Assembly: GCA_945947575.1 (NCBI GenBank)
Contig: CAMEYM010000022.1
Coordinates: 1-49,219, forward strand
From: Rhizobium sp. Q54
GTDB lineage: Bacteria > Pseudomonadota > Alphaproteobacteria > UBA2966 > CAIVPW01
Direction of reading: 5' to 3'
DNA: 49,219 nucleotides
The position numbers and the translations under genes are program-made. Below are positions 19,470 to 46,203 of this stretch, one piece after another (the stretch's first letter is position 1; the number at the start of each line of letters is the position of its first letter). The notes under the pieces were generated by a model. It saw only the letters and a list, made by a program, of their open reading frames with translations. It did not search any database and had not been told where the DNA came from.

Positions 19470-19843
19470 GCACGCTCCTCCAAGGCATCGCCTGGGGCCT
19501 CGGTACCGCGCGCGCGCGTGCCGCCATGGGGCGCGCGATCTTGCGCGTGACGCTGGCGCTGACCGCAATGATCCTGATGCTGCTCGCCGTCGGCTACTTG
19601 CTGGATGCGGCCAACGGGGCGCTCGCCGCCATCGTCGGACCGGTCTACGCCGCGCTGATCATGGGCGCCGCATTGTTGATGGTCGCCGTCGTGCTCTGGC
19701 TCACGGCCCGGCAGATCGCTCGCCGCCGTGTCGCATCGCTGCCGGCATCTGGCGGCGAAGCAGGCAGGCTACTGCTGATTCTGCTCAGCGTGCTCGCCGG
19801 CGTCGTCGCCGCGCGTTCCCGCAGCGGCGGGAAGAAGGCCTAA
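19466..19843 (+). CDS. YqjE-like / phage-holin-family (DUF1469-like) membrane protein (125 aa)
   Basis: A GTG start at 19466 overlaps the previous stop (GTGA). There are two strong central membrane helices ([16 protein letters not shown] and [19 protein letters not shown]) and a weaker C-terminal hydrophobic stretch, with Arg-rich connecting loops. Its size and its partnering with a DUF883-like gene fit the YqjE/Actinobacterial holin-family proteins of unknown role. The stop overlaps the end of purA on the other strand. Confidence 0.72.
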
Positions 19844-21129
19844 GCCGCGAACGGATCCTTCAACAGGATCGTGTCGTCGCGCTCGGGGCTGGTGGACAGC
19901 AGCGTCACCGGCGCCTCGATCAGCTCTTCGATGCGGCGGATGTATTTCACCGCCGTCGCCGGCAGCGCGGCATAGCTGCGCGCGCCGCGCGTGCTCTCGC
20001 TCCAGCCTTCCATCGTCTCGTAGACCGGGCGCACGCGCGCCTGCGGCGAAGCACCTGCGGGCAGATAGTCCACCGAGTGCCCGTCCAGCAGGTAGTGCGT
20101 GCAGACCTTGAGCTCCTTCATGCCGTCGAGCACGTCAAGCTTGGTGAGGGCGATGCCGTCGATGCCGCCGATCTTCACCGCCTGTCGCACTGCCACGGCG
20201 TCGAACCAGCCGCAGCGCCGCCGCCGCCCGGTCACCGTGCCGAACTCCTTGCCGCGCTCGCCGATGCCGCGTCCGATCTCGTCGTCGAGCTCGGTCGGGA
20301 AGGGGCCCGCACCGACGCGCGTCGTGTAGGCCTTGGTGATGCCGAGCACGTGGTCGATGGCGCCGGGTCCGACGCCCGCGCCGGTCGAAGCCGCGCCCGC
20401 CGTCGTGTTCGACGACGTGACGTACGGATAGGTGCCCTGATCGACGTCGAGCAGCGTGCCTTGCGCGCCCTCGAACAGCACGTGCTTGCCGAGGCGCCGC
20501 GCTTCGGCGAGCCGCCGCCACACCGGATCGGCGAACGGCAGGATCTTGGGCGCGATCTCTTTCAGCGAGCGCACCAGCGCGTCGCCGTCCACCGGCGGCT
20601 TGCCGAAGCCCTTGCGCAAGGCGTTGTGGTAGGCGAGTAGGCGGTCCACCTGATGCCCGAGCTGCGAGTCGTCGGCGAGGTCGCACACGCGCACTGCGCG
20701 CCGCCCGACCTTGTCCTCGTAAGCGGGCCCGATGCCGCGCCGCGTCGTCCCCAGCGGCTGGTTGGTCGAATCCTCGCGGTAGGTGTCGAGCTCGCGGTGC
20801 AGCGGCAGGATCAGCGTCGCACTCTCGGAGACCTTGAGGTTCTCCGGCGTGACATGCACGCCCTGCTTGCCGATGTTGGCGATCTCGGTGAGCAGTGCCC
20901 AGGGGTCGACGACGACGCCGTTGCCGATGATCGACAGCTTGCCCGGCCGCACCACACCGGACGGCAGCAGGCTGAGCTTGTAGACGGTGCCGTCGATGAC
21001 CAGGGTGTGGCCGGCATTGTGGCCGCCCTGGAAGCGGACCACGATCTCGGCGCGCTGGCTCAGCCAGTCGACGATCTTGCCTTTGCCTTCGTCGCCCCAC
21101 TGGGCGCCGATGACGACTACATTGGCCAT
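19840..21129 (-). CDS. purA: Adenylosuccinate synthetase
   Basis: A 429-aa enzyme that joins IMP and aspartate with GTP hydrolysis in AMP synthesis. The N-terminus has [16 protein letters not shown] (P-loop-like GDEGKGK at residues 12-18, with catalytic Asp), then GGHNAGHT with the catalytic His. [15 protein letters not shown] and [13 protein letters not shown] are also present. Length is normal. It lies 20 bp after hisZ and is likely co-transcribed from the promoter at 22688-22716. Confidence 0.97.
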
Positions 21130-21149: not shown

Positions 21150-22310
21150 CTACAGCGGCTGCGCCTGTCCCCCTGAAAGTGTGTGCGTGCAGCCTTGCGC
21201 CTTCGCAGCGGCTCGTGTGTCGCGCTCGCTCTCGAGTCCGGCGCGCGTGCGCCAGCCGGCGGCGTGCAGCTTCCGGCGCTCAGCGGCGTTGCTGCCAAAG
21301 GGCAAGTACAAGAGACGCGCCCGCTCTTGCGGCCCGGCTGCCTGCACCAATTGCTCCATGAACAGGGTGGCGCCCGTCGCCGGCTCGCCGTTGCCCAGCA
21401 CGTAGCGCCCGCCGCGGCCGAGCTCGCCGGCGACGCCCTTGGCAAAGACCGTAAAGCTGATGCCCGTCTGATATTCGAGGCCGCGGAACTCGACCGGGTC
21501 GATGGTCATGGCGAGGCCCGGTACCTGCTCGCGTACCAGGCGCACCGCTTCGCCGAGGTCGCGCACGTGCTGCTTGGCCACCGGTGGCAGCGACAGCTTG
21601 CCCAGCGCCGCGAGCGCCGCGTCCGCCGTGCCGGTGGCGCGCTGCAGGGTGCTGAACGTCAATCGACGCTCCTCGGTCAGGGCCGTCAGCGCCTGCAGGG
21701 CGCCGGCGTCCTTGCGGTCGAGCGCCGCGCGCAGGCTCGCCGTAGTGGCGGCATCTAGCTCCATGCCTGCGCACATCAGCGGCACTAGGCGCGGCAGCGA
21801 CAGATCGAACGACGGTTGCGCGACGCCGATCGCCGCCAGCGCCTCGGCGACCGCGACCATGACCTCGGCATCGGCAGCAAGCGTCGGCGCGCCGATCAGC
21901 TCGATGCCGACCTGAGTCACTTCGCGCTCGGGACGCAGCTGGCTGCCCTTCAGCTGCAGCACGGGCCCCGCGTACGACAGCCGCAACGGGCGCGGTGCCT
22001 TGGCCAGACGGGTCGTGGCAATGCGGGCAATCTGCGGCGTGATGTCGGGACGCAGTCCCATCATGCGCTGGCTGACCGGGTCCATCAGGCGGAACATGTT
22101 CGGCGCCACGGCGCCGCCCGGTCCGTCGGTCAGGGTTTCCTCGAACTCGGCGAGGGGCGGCTTGACCCGCTCGTAGCCGAACGCCGCGAAGGTAGCCACC
22201 AGGCGCGATTCCATGTCCGCCTCGATGGCGGCATCCGGCATCAGCGTGTCGTTGAGGCCGTTGGGCAGCAGCGCTTTTTGCGCGCCGGGGAGAGGGGGCT
22301 CCGTGCTCAT
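21150..22310 (-). CDS. hisZ: ATP phosphoribosyltransferase regulatory subunit HisZ
   Basis: A 386-aa HisRS-like paralogue without an anticodon-binding domain. It has class II tRNA-synthetase core motifs ([20 protein letters not shown] motif 2 region near 80-100) and [10 protein letters not shown] near the C-terminus. It forms the allosteric subunit of short-form HisG in histidine synthesis; hisG is not in this window. ATG at 22310 (MSTEPPLPG) is used. The frame is open for 124 further codons upstream, but that stretch is leader-like and lacks a credible start. Some 60 C-terminal residues look divergent. Confidence 0.92.
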
Positions 22311-22687
22311 GGCTGCAGTTCGTTCCGAAGACTCTTCGTTGCCGGACGGACGCCGCACCACCGCGTATTGGCTCGCGTATCGCTCGCGTACATTTGCGTA
22401 CTCTTTGCGCGGCGCGCCATGCGTCCGTCCGTGCCTAAGTGGTTGTGCGCCCGCCCAAATCGGCGCGCCCGCACGTGTCGCGCCGCCGCGCGTCGCTTTC
22501 GCGGGCGCCCTGCATAGCACTTTCCACCGCCAAATACGGCTAAGTACGGCGGCACATCCGAGCACTGCGGGGCGTGGGAGCACGGGGGCACAAGCGCCCG
22601 CAGGCATGCCTTCGCGCACCAGGGCGACCGCCCACGCCGCTGCGAGACGTGTCCCGGATTTGTGTTGACCTGTGCCATTCACCGGAC
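22311..22687 (-). promoter_or_regulatory. Long structured 5' leader of hisZ-purA
   Basis: About 370 nt separate the promoter from the hisZ start. No gene is recognised here on either strand. The leader contains an 11-bp inverted repeat (22343-22353 with 22421-22431) that would close a 67-nt loop. The loop holds four near-repeats of GCGTA spaced 10-12 bp. An in-frame, stop-free extension of hisZ covers it, but its composition is Arg/Ala-rich and unlike HisZ. It may be a regulatory leader; no known riboswitch class was recognised. Confidence 0.4.
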
Positions 22688-22716
22688 ATGATACCGCATG
22701 TATACATTCGTGTCAA
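22688..22716 (-). promoter_or_regulatory. Strong sigma70 promoter for hisZ-purA
   Basis: On the minus strand, a perfect TTGACA (-35, 22716-22711), a 17-bp spacer and TATCAT (-10, 22693-22688). The region is AT-rich compared with its surroundings and points to hisZ. Confidence 0.65.
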
Positions 22717-22732
22717 TACGTAATGTAATGCA

Positions 22733-22943
22733 GTGGCAGAGCAGGTATTCTTAACGAGCCGATCATTGTGGTCGCCGACATCGGCCACGGCGCTGACGAA
22801 GAGCGGCTGTACGCGCTAGGTCGAACGGATGATGGCGGTTGCTGCAGGTTGTCTTCGCACTGCGCGGCCAAGGCAAGTTGGTCAGAGTGATTTCCGCGGC
22901 CTATGCACCGCAAGGAGAAGGCGATCTATGAACAAGAAGCTTG
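22733..22943 (+). pseudogene. Frameshifted BrnT-like (DUF497) toxin remnant
   Basis: Pieces of one BrnT/DUF497-type protein appear consecutively in different frames: VAEQVFL (from 22733), NEPIIVVADIGHGADEERL with YALGRTDDG, then RLLQVVFALRGQGKLVRVISA, then PMHRKEKAIYEQEA ending near 22943. Joined, they give the typical BrnT C-terminal two-thirds (EERLYALGRT, VVFALR, RVISARxMHRKE). At least three frameshifts separate them and the N-terminus is missing, so the toxin cannot be made. The toxin end overlaps the antitoxin start, which is the normal brnT-brnA order. Confidence 0.7.
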
Positions 22944-23197
22944 GGCCCGTGCCGAAGTTCCGCAACAAGGCCGAGGAGCGCCGCTTCTGGGAGACCCACT
23001 CATCGTCGGACAGAGATTCCGACACTAACTCCCCCAACCTTCGGGTACTACGCGAGCAGGAACGCCGTCACCAAGCCGACGGCGATCCACTGCACCGCGG
23101 CGAAGGCGGTTTCGAGAGCCGCGAAATCTCGGATTTCCAGCTTGAAGCCGCGAGACGCTGCCCTGGTACCCGGCGTGCAGTATCATGCCCAGCATGA
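22928..23197 (+). pseudogene. Truncated CopG-like antitoxin (BrnA-type partner)
   Basis: ATG at 22928 has a good ribosome site (AAGGAGAAG). The first 28 residues (KLGPVPKFRNKAEERRFWETHSSSD) match the N-terminus of CopG-type antitoxins paired with BrnT. After about 23011 the similarity stops: the frame continues to 23197 with unrelated Arg/Glu-rich sequence, and the ribbon-helix-helix part is absent. The homologous part therefore covers about 22928-23011. It could still be translated, but it would lack the DNA-binding domain. Confidence 0.65.
23048..23182 (-). pseudogene. Antisense tail of a small membrane protein
   Basis: A 44-codon open stretch on the minus strand between two stops, without ATG or a suitable ribosome site. 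It ends FKLEIRDFAALETAF then AAVQWIAVGLVTAFLLA, a convincing membrane helix followed by a stop. It lies antisense to the non-homologous tail of the broken antitoxin. I take it as the 3' fragment of a lost gene; chance cannot be excluded. Confidence 0.3.
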
Positions 23198-24006
23198 TCC
23201 GAGCGCACTTGCTGGGGCTGACCGTTGCCGCGTTCGTTGCCGGGGCAGCGGGGGCGGGTCCATTGGAGGATGCGCAGGCTGCCTACGAGCGTAAAGATTT
23301 CGCCACGGCGCAAAGGCTCTGGAGCCCACTGGCTGAACAGGGCGTGGCCGACGCGGAGTTCGGATTGGGGCGCTTGTTCCTATTCGGCAACGGCGTGATC
23401 CAGGATGGAGCCCAGGCAGTCTCGTGGTTGAGCAGGGCGGCCGCTAACGGCAGAACGAACGTAGGCTGGCTGCTTGGGCAGATATACGACGGCGACCTGG
23501 ATGTGCTTGGCCTGAACGTCGTGCCGGACTCGGCGGAGGCGGTGCGCTGGTATCGAGTCGCAGCCGAAGGCGGCTTTATGGCAGCCTGGCAACAGCTCGC
23601 CGAGCATTACGCTGAGGGGCGCGGCGTCGCCCAGGATTTCGCGGAAGCGATCAAGTGGTACCGCAAGCTCGCGGACGAAGGCGACATATTCGCCCAAAGC
23701 CAAATCGGCGAATTCTATCGAGTTGGCCGCGGCGTGCCCCAAGACTACGCGGAAGCGGCGAGGTGGTTCGGCGAGGCGGGAAATGGGGGTTACGCCTACG
23801 CGCAGTATCAGATGGGACTTCTTTACCGCGATGGTCGCGGCGTGCGCGGCGATGTCGTCGAAGCCTACAAGTGGCTTGCCTTAGCATCTGGCGCCGCTGC
23901 CCCGTTCCCCGGAGCTGAAGCCGAGCGCACCCTCCTCGCCGTCAAGATGACCGCTGCCCAAATCGCCGAGGCGCAGCGATTGGCTAACGCGTGGAAGCCG
24001 AAGTAG
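23185..24006 (+). CDS. Secreted Sel1-repeat protein (273 aa)
   Basis: A Sec signal peptide (ending GAAGAGPLED) precedes about five Sel1-like repeats, among them AEFGLGRLFLFGNGVIQDGAQAVSWLSRAA-type units, AEHYAEGRGVAQDFAEAIKWY, GEFYRVGRGVPQDYAEAARWF and GLLYRDGRGVRGDVVEAYKW. Sel1 solenoids bind proteins, and periplasmic ones are common in Proteobacteria. Two in-frame ATGs (23185 and 23194) are possible and neither has a clear ribosome site. It lies between the TA remnant and serA, converging on serA. Confidence 0.88.
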   Translation: MPSMIRAHLLGLTVAAFVAGAAGAGPLEDAQAAYERKDFATAQRLWSPLAEQGVADAEFGLGRLFLFGNGVIQDGAQAVSWLSRAAANGRTNVGWLLGQIYDGDLDVLGLNVVPDSAEAVRWYRVAAEGGFMAAWQQLAEHYAEGRGVAQDFAEAIKWYRKLADEGDIFAQSQIGEFYRVGRGVPQDYAEAARWFGEAGNGGYAYAQYQMGLLYRDGRGVRGDVVEAYKWLALASGAAAPFPGAEAERTLLAVKMTAAQIAEAQRLANAWKPK

Positions 24007-24040
24007 CCGGCCCATCGGTGACGCCAACGCATCCTGACCC

Positions 24041-25651
24041 TCACGCCGCGCGTGCACCCGGCATGCGCTGCATGCCCGGGAACCGCAGCGCCTTTGCCTG
24101 GCGGACCATCGGCAGGCCGCGCAGGGAGGCCAGGACACTCTCCGGCACTCCGTCGTCCACCTCGATCAGCGAGATGGCGTCGCCGCCCGCTTTGTTGCGG
24201 CCTAGGTGGAAGGTGGCGATGTTGACCGACGCGTTGCCGAGGGCGGTGCCGAGTCGGCCGATGAAGCCCGGCTTGTCCTCGTTGGTGAGGAACAGCATGT
24301 GCGGCGCCAGCTCCGCCTCCACGGCGATGCCGTCGATCTCGACGACGCGCGGCTTCTGGTTGGCGAACAAGGTGCCGGCGACGGTGCGCGTGCGTCCCTC
24401 AGCCGTAACCGTGATGCGGATCAGCGAGGTGTAGTCGCCGGCCTTCTCGTTGGTGGACTCGATGATCTCGATGCCGCGCTCGCGCGCCACCACCGGCGCG
24501 TTGACCATGTTCACCGAGGACATCAGCGGCGACAGCAGGCCTTCCAGCACCACGGCGGCGAGCGGTCGCGTGTTGAGGGAGGCGACGTGGCCCTGGAACT
24601 CGATGGCGACGCGCTTCAGGCCGCTGTCGGTGATCTGGCCGGCGAAGCCGCCGAGCTGCTCGGCGAGCTTCATGTAGGGCTTGAGCTTCGGCGCATCCTC
24701 GGCGCTCACCGAGGCCATGTTGAGAGCATTGGTCACTGCGCCCAGCAGCAGGAAATCCGCCATCTGCTCGGCGACCTGGATCGCCACGTTCTCCTGCGCC
24801 TCGGTCGTGGAGGCGCCGAGATGCGGCGTCGCCACCACGTTGGGCAGCTTGAACAGCGGGCTGTCCTTGGCGGGCTCGACGGCGAACACGTCGAGGGCGG
24901 CGCCGGCGACCTGCCCGGACTTCAGCGCATCGTGCAGCGCGTCCTCGACGATGAGGCCGCCGCGCGCGCAATTGACGATGCGCACGCCCTTCTTGGTCCT
25001 CGCCAGCGCCTTGGCGTCGAGGATGTTGCGCGTCTGGTCGGTGAGCGGCGTGTGCAGGCTGATGAAGTCGGCGCGCGCCAGCAGGTCGTCGAGATCGACG
25101 CGCTCGACGCCGATCTCCTTGGCGCGGTCGACGGACAGGAACGGATCGTACGCCAGCACGCGCATCTTCAAACCTTGGGCGCGGTTGGCGACCACCGAGC
25201 CGATGTTGCCGCAACCGATCAGGCCGAGGGTCTTGTTGGCGACCTCGACGCCCATGAAGCGGTTCTTCTCCCACTTGCCGGCGCGCGTCGAGGCGTCGGC
25301 CTCAGGGATCTGGCGCGCCAGCGCCAGCATCATGGCGATCGCATGCTCGGCCGTGGTGATCGAATTGCCGAACGGCGTGTTCATCACCACGATGCCGCGC
25401 GCGGTGGCGGCCGGTACGTCGATGTTATCGACGCCAATGCCGGCGCGCCCCACCACCTTGAGGTTGCTTGCGGCCTCCAGAACCTCGGCCGTGATCTTGG
25501 TCGAGGAACGCACCGCCATGCCGTCGTAGCTGCCGACGATCTGCGCCAGCTCCTTCGGCGCCAGGCCGGGGCGCTCGTCCACGGTCAGGCCGCGCTCGCG
25601 AAAGATTTCCGCCGCGCGCGGGCTCATCGAGTCGGCGATCAGTACCTTCAT
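24041..25651 (-). CDS. serA: D-3-phosphoglycerate dehydrogenase
   Basis: A 536-aa long-form SerA, catalysing the first step of serine synthesis. It has the NAD-binding motif GLIGCGNIGSVVA (about residues 144-156), catalytic NCARGGLIVE (Arg near 234) and TPHLGAST with the catalytic His (near 278-285). An intervening ASB-like domain follows, and a C-terminal ACT domain (LTNEDKPGFIGRLGTALG) for serine feedback. It follows serC by 66 bp in a serC-serA operon. Confidence 0.97.
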   Translation of the reverse strand: MKVLIADSMSPRAAEIFRERGLTVDERPGLAPKELAQIVGSYDGMAVRSSTKITAEVLEAASNLKVVGRAGIGVDNIDVPAATARGIVVMNTPFGNSITTAEHAIAMMLALARQIPEADASTRAGKWEKNRFMGVEVANKTLGLIGCGNIGSVVANRAQGLKMRVLAYDPFLSVDRAKEIGVERVDLDDLLARADFISLHTPLTDQTRNILDAKALARTKKGVRIVNCARGGLIVEDALHDALKSGQVAGAALDVFAVEPAKDSPLFKLPNVVATPHLGASTTEAQENVAIQVAEQMADFLLLGAVTNALNMASVSAEDAPKLKPYMKLAEQLGGFAGQITDSGLKRVAIEFQGHVASLNTRPLAAVVLEGLLSPLMSSVNMVNAPVVARERGIEIIESTNEKAGDYTSLIRITVTAEGRTRTVAGTLFANQKPRVVEIDGIAVEAELAPHMLFLTNEDKPGFIGRLGTALGNASVNIATFHLGRNKAGGDAISLIEVDDGVPESVLASLRGLPMVRQAKALRFPGMQRMPGARAA

Positions 25652-46037: not shown

Positions 46038-46203
46038 GAAGCGGGACCGCACCGGCCGATGACGCGCCTGATCCACTGTGACCTGCACTCTGCAGGTGGG
46101 CGCCGTAATGCCGAAGCCACGGCTCCGGCAGGGACAGCTCCCGATGGACGTGAAAGGTCCCAGGGATACTTGCCGCCTGTCGGACCGGGCAGTACCCGCC
46201 TTC
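46038..46203 (-). ncRNA. ssrS: 6S RNA
   Basis: Located between zapA and 5-FCL, the conserved place for 6S RNA. The ends pair in a long interrupted stem: GAAGGCGGG with CCCGCTTC, ACTGC with GCGGT, CCGG and CCGA with TCGG and CCGG. Internal segments such as CCCTGGGACCTTTC, GCCGTGGCTTCGGC and GCCCACCTGCAGAGTGCAGGTC, then ACAGTGG, match alphaproteobacterial 6S RNAs. The RNA imitates an open promoter and sequesters sigma70 RNA polymerase in stationary phase. Ends are set by the terminal stem and may be off by a few nt. Confidence 0.85.

Follow-up and report, generated by a model that had tools for sequence, protein, structure and literature searches.

The subject of this report is the leader of the hisZ-purA genes in positions 1 to 49,219 of contig CAMEYM010000022.1 of Rhizobium sp. 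Q54, a stretch of 49,219 nucleotides that will be called the window. In this leader (22311-22716), a strong promoter stands ahead of an array of four short units, and the array recurs at dispersed places of the genome, including the start of a gene for a DUF5681-like protein. Our reading is that motifs of this kind may be recognition sites of such proteins. The window genome will be referred to as G000, its closest relative as G002, and the third species compared as G003; further genomes carry their own G numbers.

The leader ahead of hisZ

The initial annotation described a near-consensus promoter, TTGACA-17-TATCAT, lying unusually far from hisZ, and both parts of this description hold. Since the hisZ ATG is at 22310 on the minus strand, the promoter (Table 1), if used, gives a leader of ~370 nt. 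When 249 kb of the genome, made up of the window and ten 20-kb stretches, were scanned with TTGACN-N16-18-TANNNT, four sites scored at least 10/12, and the promoter of the hisZ leader ranks second. The four GCGTA units were likewise found where they had been placed, at 22363, 22375, 22386, and 22396, with spacings of 12, 11, and 10 bp; on the hisZ strand the array reads GGATACGCAAATTAACGCGANNGATACGC, with cores 10, 11, and 11-12 bp apart. The window holds three phased GCGTA-GCGTA pairs, a number reached in 0/100 shuffles (mean 0.19), and in 2000 dinucleotide shufflings the leader never yielded the triple array.

The perfect 11-bp inverted repeat reported around the array is present, but it was equalled in 38/1000 leader shuffles, and the flanking perfect inverted repeats at the 11 other sites of this array are only 5 to 9 bp long. 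For these reasons it was dropped as an essential part. Folding of a 105-nt stretch of the leader as RNA gave z scores of -2.1 for the plus strand and -3.3 for the minus strand. Rfam has no family in 22311-22716, in agreement with the earlier failure to recognise a riboswitch class, nor in 14 related loci, and a riboswitch or attenuator was discarded on these grounds.

The gene order around the leader is instructive. With tblastn, serA was found upstream of hisZ in all seven other genomes of the family and in 12/19 further hisZ loci examined, within the stretch available. Measured from the end of the serA match to the beginning of the hisZ match, the two are 55-148 nt apart in six of the relatives and ~690 nt apart in G003, which has an extra small gene there, against 1.7 kb in the window. 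It is this difference that marks the hisZ leader as private to this genome, on the sequences compared. The leader is not upstream of hisZ in the seven family genomes, and a DNA search of 41 genomes found no second copy of it, except for a 38-bp part of the array, present in G002. Conservation among relatives is thus split: the leader is not kept near hisZ, and its repeats recur.

Dispersal of the array and change of its core

Defined as at least three ATACGC-type units 10-12 bp apart that recur in the genome, the array of the window belongs to what we call class A. Pattern searches and a profile gave seven sites with units spaced 10/11/12 in G000 and five in G002. Their places include the recA-alaS gap, sites upstream of groES (groESL), and upstream of dnaX, the 5′ part of a DUF5681-like gene, and gaps between convergent genes, the open reading frames being as we picked them; an element by groES near the class-A site is presumably CIRCE. 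In either genome, one of the sites falls within the coding sequence of the DUF5681-like gene, in its 5′ part (L081/L219 in G000, L088/L225 in G002), and three pairs of sites are orthologous between the two genomes. From this, the hisZ array appears to be one copy of a dispersed short DNA pattern, and it does not look like a histidine or purine switch.

The search pattern CGCGTNNNTTTGCGTAYNC, with up to two mismatches, showed no clear excess over its reversed control in G001 (9 vs 9), G003 (9 vs 9), or G004 (8 vs 9). Among 84,980 species genomes, in which the records of the window genome were possibly left out, the strict array pattern matched three contigs of one assembly only, CAMDPO01. Two pattern scans of viral contigs gave 0 matches, and a viral origin was dropped.

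In G003, the syntenic DUF5681-like gene (L213/L233), whose flanks are 88% identical to L081/L088, carries ATGCGG units, again 10/11/12 apart, and the recA-alaS gap has an ATGCGG array in place of the ATACGC array of G000 and G002. This gap was compared in four of five genomes, that of G001 being absent from the comparison; in G004 no array was seen by eye. A search pattern derived from the two G003 places has seven matches at five places in that genome, three of them new and mostly between genes, in regions whose counterparts in G002 or G000 contain or adjoin other units. Elsewhere it matched once each in G004 and G007 and not at all in G000, G001, G002, G005, or G006; the reversed control gave 0 in all genomes except G001 (1). 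That the array differs between species together with the DUF5681 genes suggests a protein and scattered sites evolving together.

Classes B, C, and G

Three further DUF5681-like paralogues each carry a different motif, which is likewise dispersed. Motif B, CCGCGYAATCCCGCGYNNTTTRCGCGG, consists of three CGCGY half-sites 10 bp apart and occurs elsewhere as well as inside the DUF5681-like gene L139/L153. It matched 12 times in G000, 13 times in G002 (three of these form one overlapping run), once each in G001, G003, and G006, and not in G004, G005, or G007, against one reversed-control match in G000, one in G005, and two in G007. Motifs C and G were picked from their DUF5681-like genes first and then searched across genomes, with 0 control matches for either: class C has five matches in G002, three in G000, and one in G001, and class G has 17 in 6/8 genomes.

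Class B permits a base-by-base comparison. At seven intergenic pairs the motif is identical at 173/198 positions and the flanks at 447/845, the orthology of one pair (L144/L147) being not well supported. At seven well supported orthologous pairs, all 12 differences in half-site bases have C/G in G000 and T/A in G002, whereas differences in the flanks of the orthologous pairs are divided 379 to 350, with no directional bias; two more differences, in the loop, run opposite to those of the half-sites. The gene copies L139/L153 match the base pattern of their species. Over 23 distinct sites (12 in G000, 11 in G002), the last half-site base is G in 11/12 sites of G000 and in 2/11 of G002 (Fisher p 0.0006, with sites that are not independent).

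Promoters accompany many of these motifs. Counting a promoter of at least 9/12 within 200 nt upstream on the same strand, and with some loci counted in two classes, 28/48 sites of classes B, C, and G are promoter-linked, vs 8, 3, and 0 of 48 in three control windows. Several units look like the start of a DUF5681 gene without its remainder; L187, for one, has a promoter, ribosome-binding site, short frame, and motif. The palindrome ATAC-N5-GTAT, which lies within the window promoter, occurs seven times in ~783 kb of sampled sequence, vs 11 occurrences for eight other spacings combined; its three places in G000 are the window promoter, one class-G unit, and the L187 unit.

Two side observations concern these classes. 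L254 (G001:C49) and L260 (G000:C10) are near-identical 170-nt stretches with a promoter and a class-C motif in species whose hisZ proteins share 78%, pointing to recent transfer or assembly contamination. In L242 and L245 (G007 and G001), the class-G motif is fused directly to a class-B-like hairpin, CGTGATCTGCGTAAATCCCGCGTATTTACGCG, and this fusion is common to two genera.

The DUF5681-like proteins

The Pfam search gave 23 DUF5681 matches, three of phage type and 20 others. By our reading, 11/20 of the latter genes carry a class A, B, C, or G motif, and the other nine carry related sequences or further candidate motifs; the search did not pick up a probable extra class-G gene (G003:C37, L252), and the class-C gene of G000 (L223) appears truncated, with no obvious start. 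The class motifs sit just before the conserved GRPF/GNPG domain. Phage-type genes in G000:C7 and G004:C132 have a ParB_N/N6_N4_Mtase gene on one side and a Terminase_6C gene on the other and stand directly before the large terminase gene, as is usual for a small-terminase gene, a position that the solitary motif-carrying genes do not have. One plasmid homologue is annotated as a terminase small subunit.

DUF5681 has almost no literature, and in the portions of it available the mention found is as a phage protein, listed among those retrieved in a structural proteome analysis. PHROGs returned weak, unnamed families only, and a PDB sequence search gave 0 matches for a query that says little, being a short, poorly placed piece of 33 residues. 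A defence system was dropped after PADLOC had 0 matches with four proteins.

Interpretation and alternatives

With moderate confidence, we favour the view that the class motifs are cognate recognition sites of small-terminase-like DUF5681 proteins. The observations at its base are the dispersal of the motifs, their intragenic position, the core change common to gene and sites, the one-directional changes at orthologous sites, and the small-terminase position of the phage-type genes. Recognition by small-terminase-like proteins, in particular, is preferred because of the terminase-adjacent members and the small-subunit annotation of the plasmid homologue; that DUF5681 is the binding factor, DNA the target, and the effect regulatory is what we infer.

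The mechanism may be outlined as follows. The genus has at least four motif classes, of which class A is one, and each is present in the 5′ part of a DUF5681-like coding sequence and elsewhere in the genome, mostly between genes. Each protein would recognise its own class, probably cooperatively and on one face of the helix, with units 10-12 bp apart. The motif within the gene might then exert feedback control, and the dispersed copies might control a linked promoter, possibly that of hisZ-purA here, or titrate the protein. The hisZ leader would be a genome-private unit of strong promoter and recognition-type motifs that arrived between serA and hisZ-purA. The earlier proposal of a protein-binding array in DNA gains indirect support from the 10-12 bp spacing, kept at dispersed sites and across the core change, the binding itself being putative; OmpR/PhoB-type direct repeats as the named regulator had no supporting result and were dropped. 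A further step, speculative and rather doubtful in our judgement, is that DUF5681-like proteins are domesticated relatives of small terminases, each with its own dispersed pac-like code, whose fast co-evolution changes the cores between species of one genus and whose code is kept in the gene and in orphan promoter-plus-site units.

Several results weigh against recognition of the motifs by DUF5681-like proteins. Class A is promoter-linked at 2/12 sites, vs 1, 1, and 0 in the controls, and the window promoter is ~280 nt from the array. At the three orthologous class-A pairs the cores are identical at 68/87 positions and the flanks at 280/445, a modest excess, which one pair lacks because of a 12-nt indel. 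The strong matches of profile R1 are its own training sequences, including the window site, and its extra matches amount to noise in other family genomes and, in G000, to three weak hits with E values from 2.6e-4 to 6.5e-4. The next gene, as we picked the reading frames, is on the same strand in just 6/14 class-B units, so regulation of neighbours is not general. The class-A members of G002 and G003 and all class-G members found fall below the Pfam cut-off, and DUF5681-like is therefore the safe name. Finally, NCBIfam, PADLOC, and a PDB fold search named no function for these proteins; the structure model of the class-A protein is predicted to be helical with only a moderate predicted template modelling score (pTM 0.43), and it had no PDB match at E ≤0.001.

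The foremost alternative, which we regard as unlikely, is that the motifs resemble repetitive extragenic palindromic (REP) sequences, being remnants of mobile elements or non-autonomous copies, with DUF5681-like genes as hosts or former carriers and no cognate binding. Motifs that are dispersed, partly palindromic, and species-limited would fit, as would the several units that resemble the start of a DUF5681 gene alone, such as L187; orthologous positions, motifs kept amid diverged flanks, and in-place change in one direction do not. Random insertion, moreover, would not put four classes each at the corresponding position within a DUF5681-like gene, and this counts against such an origin.

Control at the RNA level strikes us as improbable. 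Here the motifs would act as structured RNA elements, both in the transcripts of DUF5681-like genes and in orphan small RNAs, and their binding partner would be DUF5681 or some other RNA-binding protein. The class-B, C, and G motifs do lie downstream of promoters in a single orientation, many units run into opposite-strand genes, and class B contains an inverted repeat of 8 bp in which C-G and T-A stand in for each other and the T-G of 6/23 sites could pair as U-G. Against this, the spacing stays helical, at 10-12 bp in class A and 10 bp in class B, a C/A mismatch occurs at the class-B site L080, no Rfam family matched in the 14 loci, and no common RNA fold was found for the class-A arrays.

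The suggestion that the leader serves hisZ-purA by sensing histidine or purines is not supported, and we now find it very improbable. A strong promoter and a foldable leader do stand immediately before hisZ, but the leader is private to the genome and without a second copy, serA, hisZ, and purA are close together in 7/7 relatives, the array lies beside unrelated genes, and no Rfam family was found. Chance or compositional repeats are scarcely credible given the 0/2000 shuffles and the exact recurrence with near-zero controls, even though a genome GC content of ~0.68 favours CG-rich repeats and phased 5-mers were in most samples no commoner than at control spacings (G001 and G003 showed no notable excess, and G000 had 36 vs 21 and 29, so that a global excess was dropped).

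If the pairing of motif and protein is true, the DUF5681 family would gain a testable function, the recognition code of each protein could be read from its own gene, and the genus would offer a natural series of joint protein and site change, useful for the evolution of binding specificity. The locus also calls for caution in annotation, as a strong promoter and repeats before a metabolic operon need not mean a metabolite switch.

Other features of the window

Table 1. Features at and around the hisZ leader
Feature	Position	Strand	Remark
purA (PF00709)	19840..21129	-	
hisZ (tRNA-synt_His, PF13393)	21150..22310	-	
serA-hisZ intervening stretch	22311..24040		probably inserted DNA; only 55-690 nt in 7 other family members
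Left arm of 11-bp inverted repeat	22343..22353		probably incidental
Class-A dispersed array, four TACGC units (plus strand GCGTA) 10/11/12 bp apart	22362..22403	-	pattern searches, shuffles
Right arm of 11-bp inverted repeat	22421..22431		probably incidental
CGTA-type palindrome CCGCCGTACTTAGCCGTATTTGGCGG, two CCGTA units 11 bp apart	22527..22552	-	resembles in kind motifs of other units
Near-consensus promoter TTGACA-17-TATCAT	22688..22716	-	11/12 match
Palindrome ATAC-N5-GTAT between -35 and -10	22691..22703		type recurs at promoters of this unit class; putative function
Imperfect second palindrome copy, TTAC-N5-GTAT (minus strand), overlapping -35 box	22716..22728		putative, from reading the sequence
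serA, usual upstream neighbour of hisZ-purA	24041..25651	-	our reading and homologues

The serA-hisZ gap of the window also holds a gene for a Sel1-repeat protein (23185-24006, plus strand) and a frame (22829-23197, plus strand) that matches CopG_antitoxin weakly and below the cut-off (E 9e-4); upstream of this frame is what we read as a seemingly decayed BrnT-type toxin, likely a toxin-antitoxin remnant between serA and hisZ. In G003, the gap has a small gene, glyoxalase-like by our reading (L005, G003:C30), and the gap therefore seems to acquire DNA repeatedly. Two RNAs score above the Rfam gathering score, a serC leader (RF00517) at 26918-26866 (minus strand) ahead of serC, which is the sole leader family in the window, and 6S RNA at 46040-46198 (minus strand).

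Comparison with known systems

We know of no described system that joins all these features, and the closest ones each share a part of them. The serC leader stands in the window ahead of serC-serA, the genes after which hisZ-purA normally follows; it is related neither to the array nor to the leader of hisZ.

REP sequences occur in classes that are each paired with their own RAYT gene, which encodes a cognate tyrosine (Y1) transposase; DUF5681, to our knowledge, is not known as a transposase. In the parts of the REP/RAYT literature available to us, REP sequences are, like the present motifs, short, dispersed, and partly palindromic, with several classes per genome (PMC3686654, PMC2817692), and more than 100 copies are given (PMC2817692). 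The motifs discussed here differ in having ~5 to 13 matches per class and genome and in lying inside a gene.

The DUF5681-like genes can also be set beside autoregulated transcription factors. An autoregulated transcription factor with a regulon has a site in its own gene and others at further promoters, and gene and sites change together. The DUF5681-like gene and its sites change together as well; however, the site is within the coding region, most units have no obvious target gene, and the protein has no known DNA-binding domain.

The last comparison is with the small terminase and pac site of phages such as SPP1/SF6, in which the packaging site may extend over the promoter and the first part of the small-terminase gene itself. 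Small terminases of this kind typically form ring-shaped oligomers with helix-turn-helix DNA-binding domains and bind specifically to repeats where their gene begins. Unlike these, the motif-carrying DUF5681-like genes are solitary and chromosomal, with several paralogues, the motifs are dispersed over the chromosome, and the moderate protein model showed no clear helix-turn-helix fold and no significant PDB match. As in SPP1/SF6, a promoter precedes the repeats, which stand where the gene starts, and the phage-type DUF5681 gene precedes that of the large terminase.
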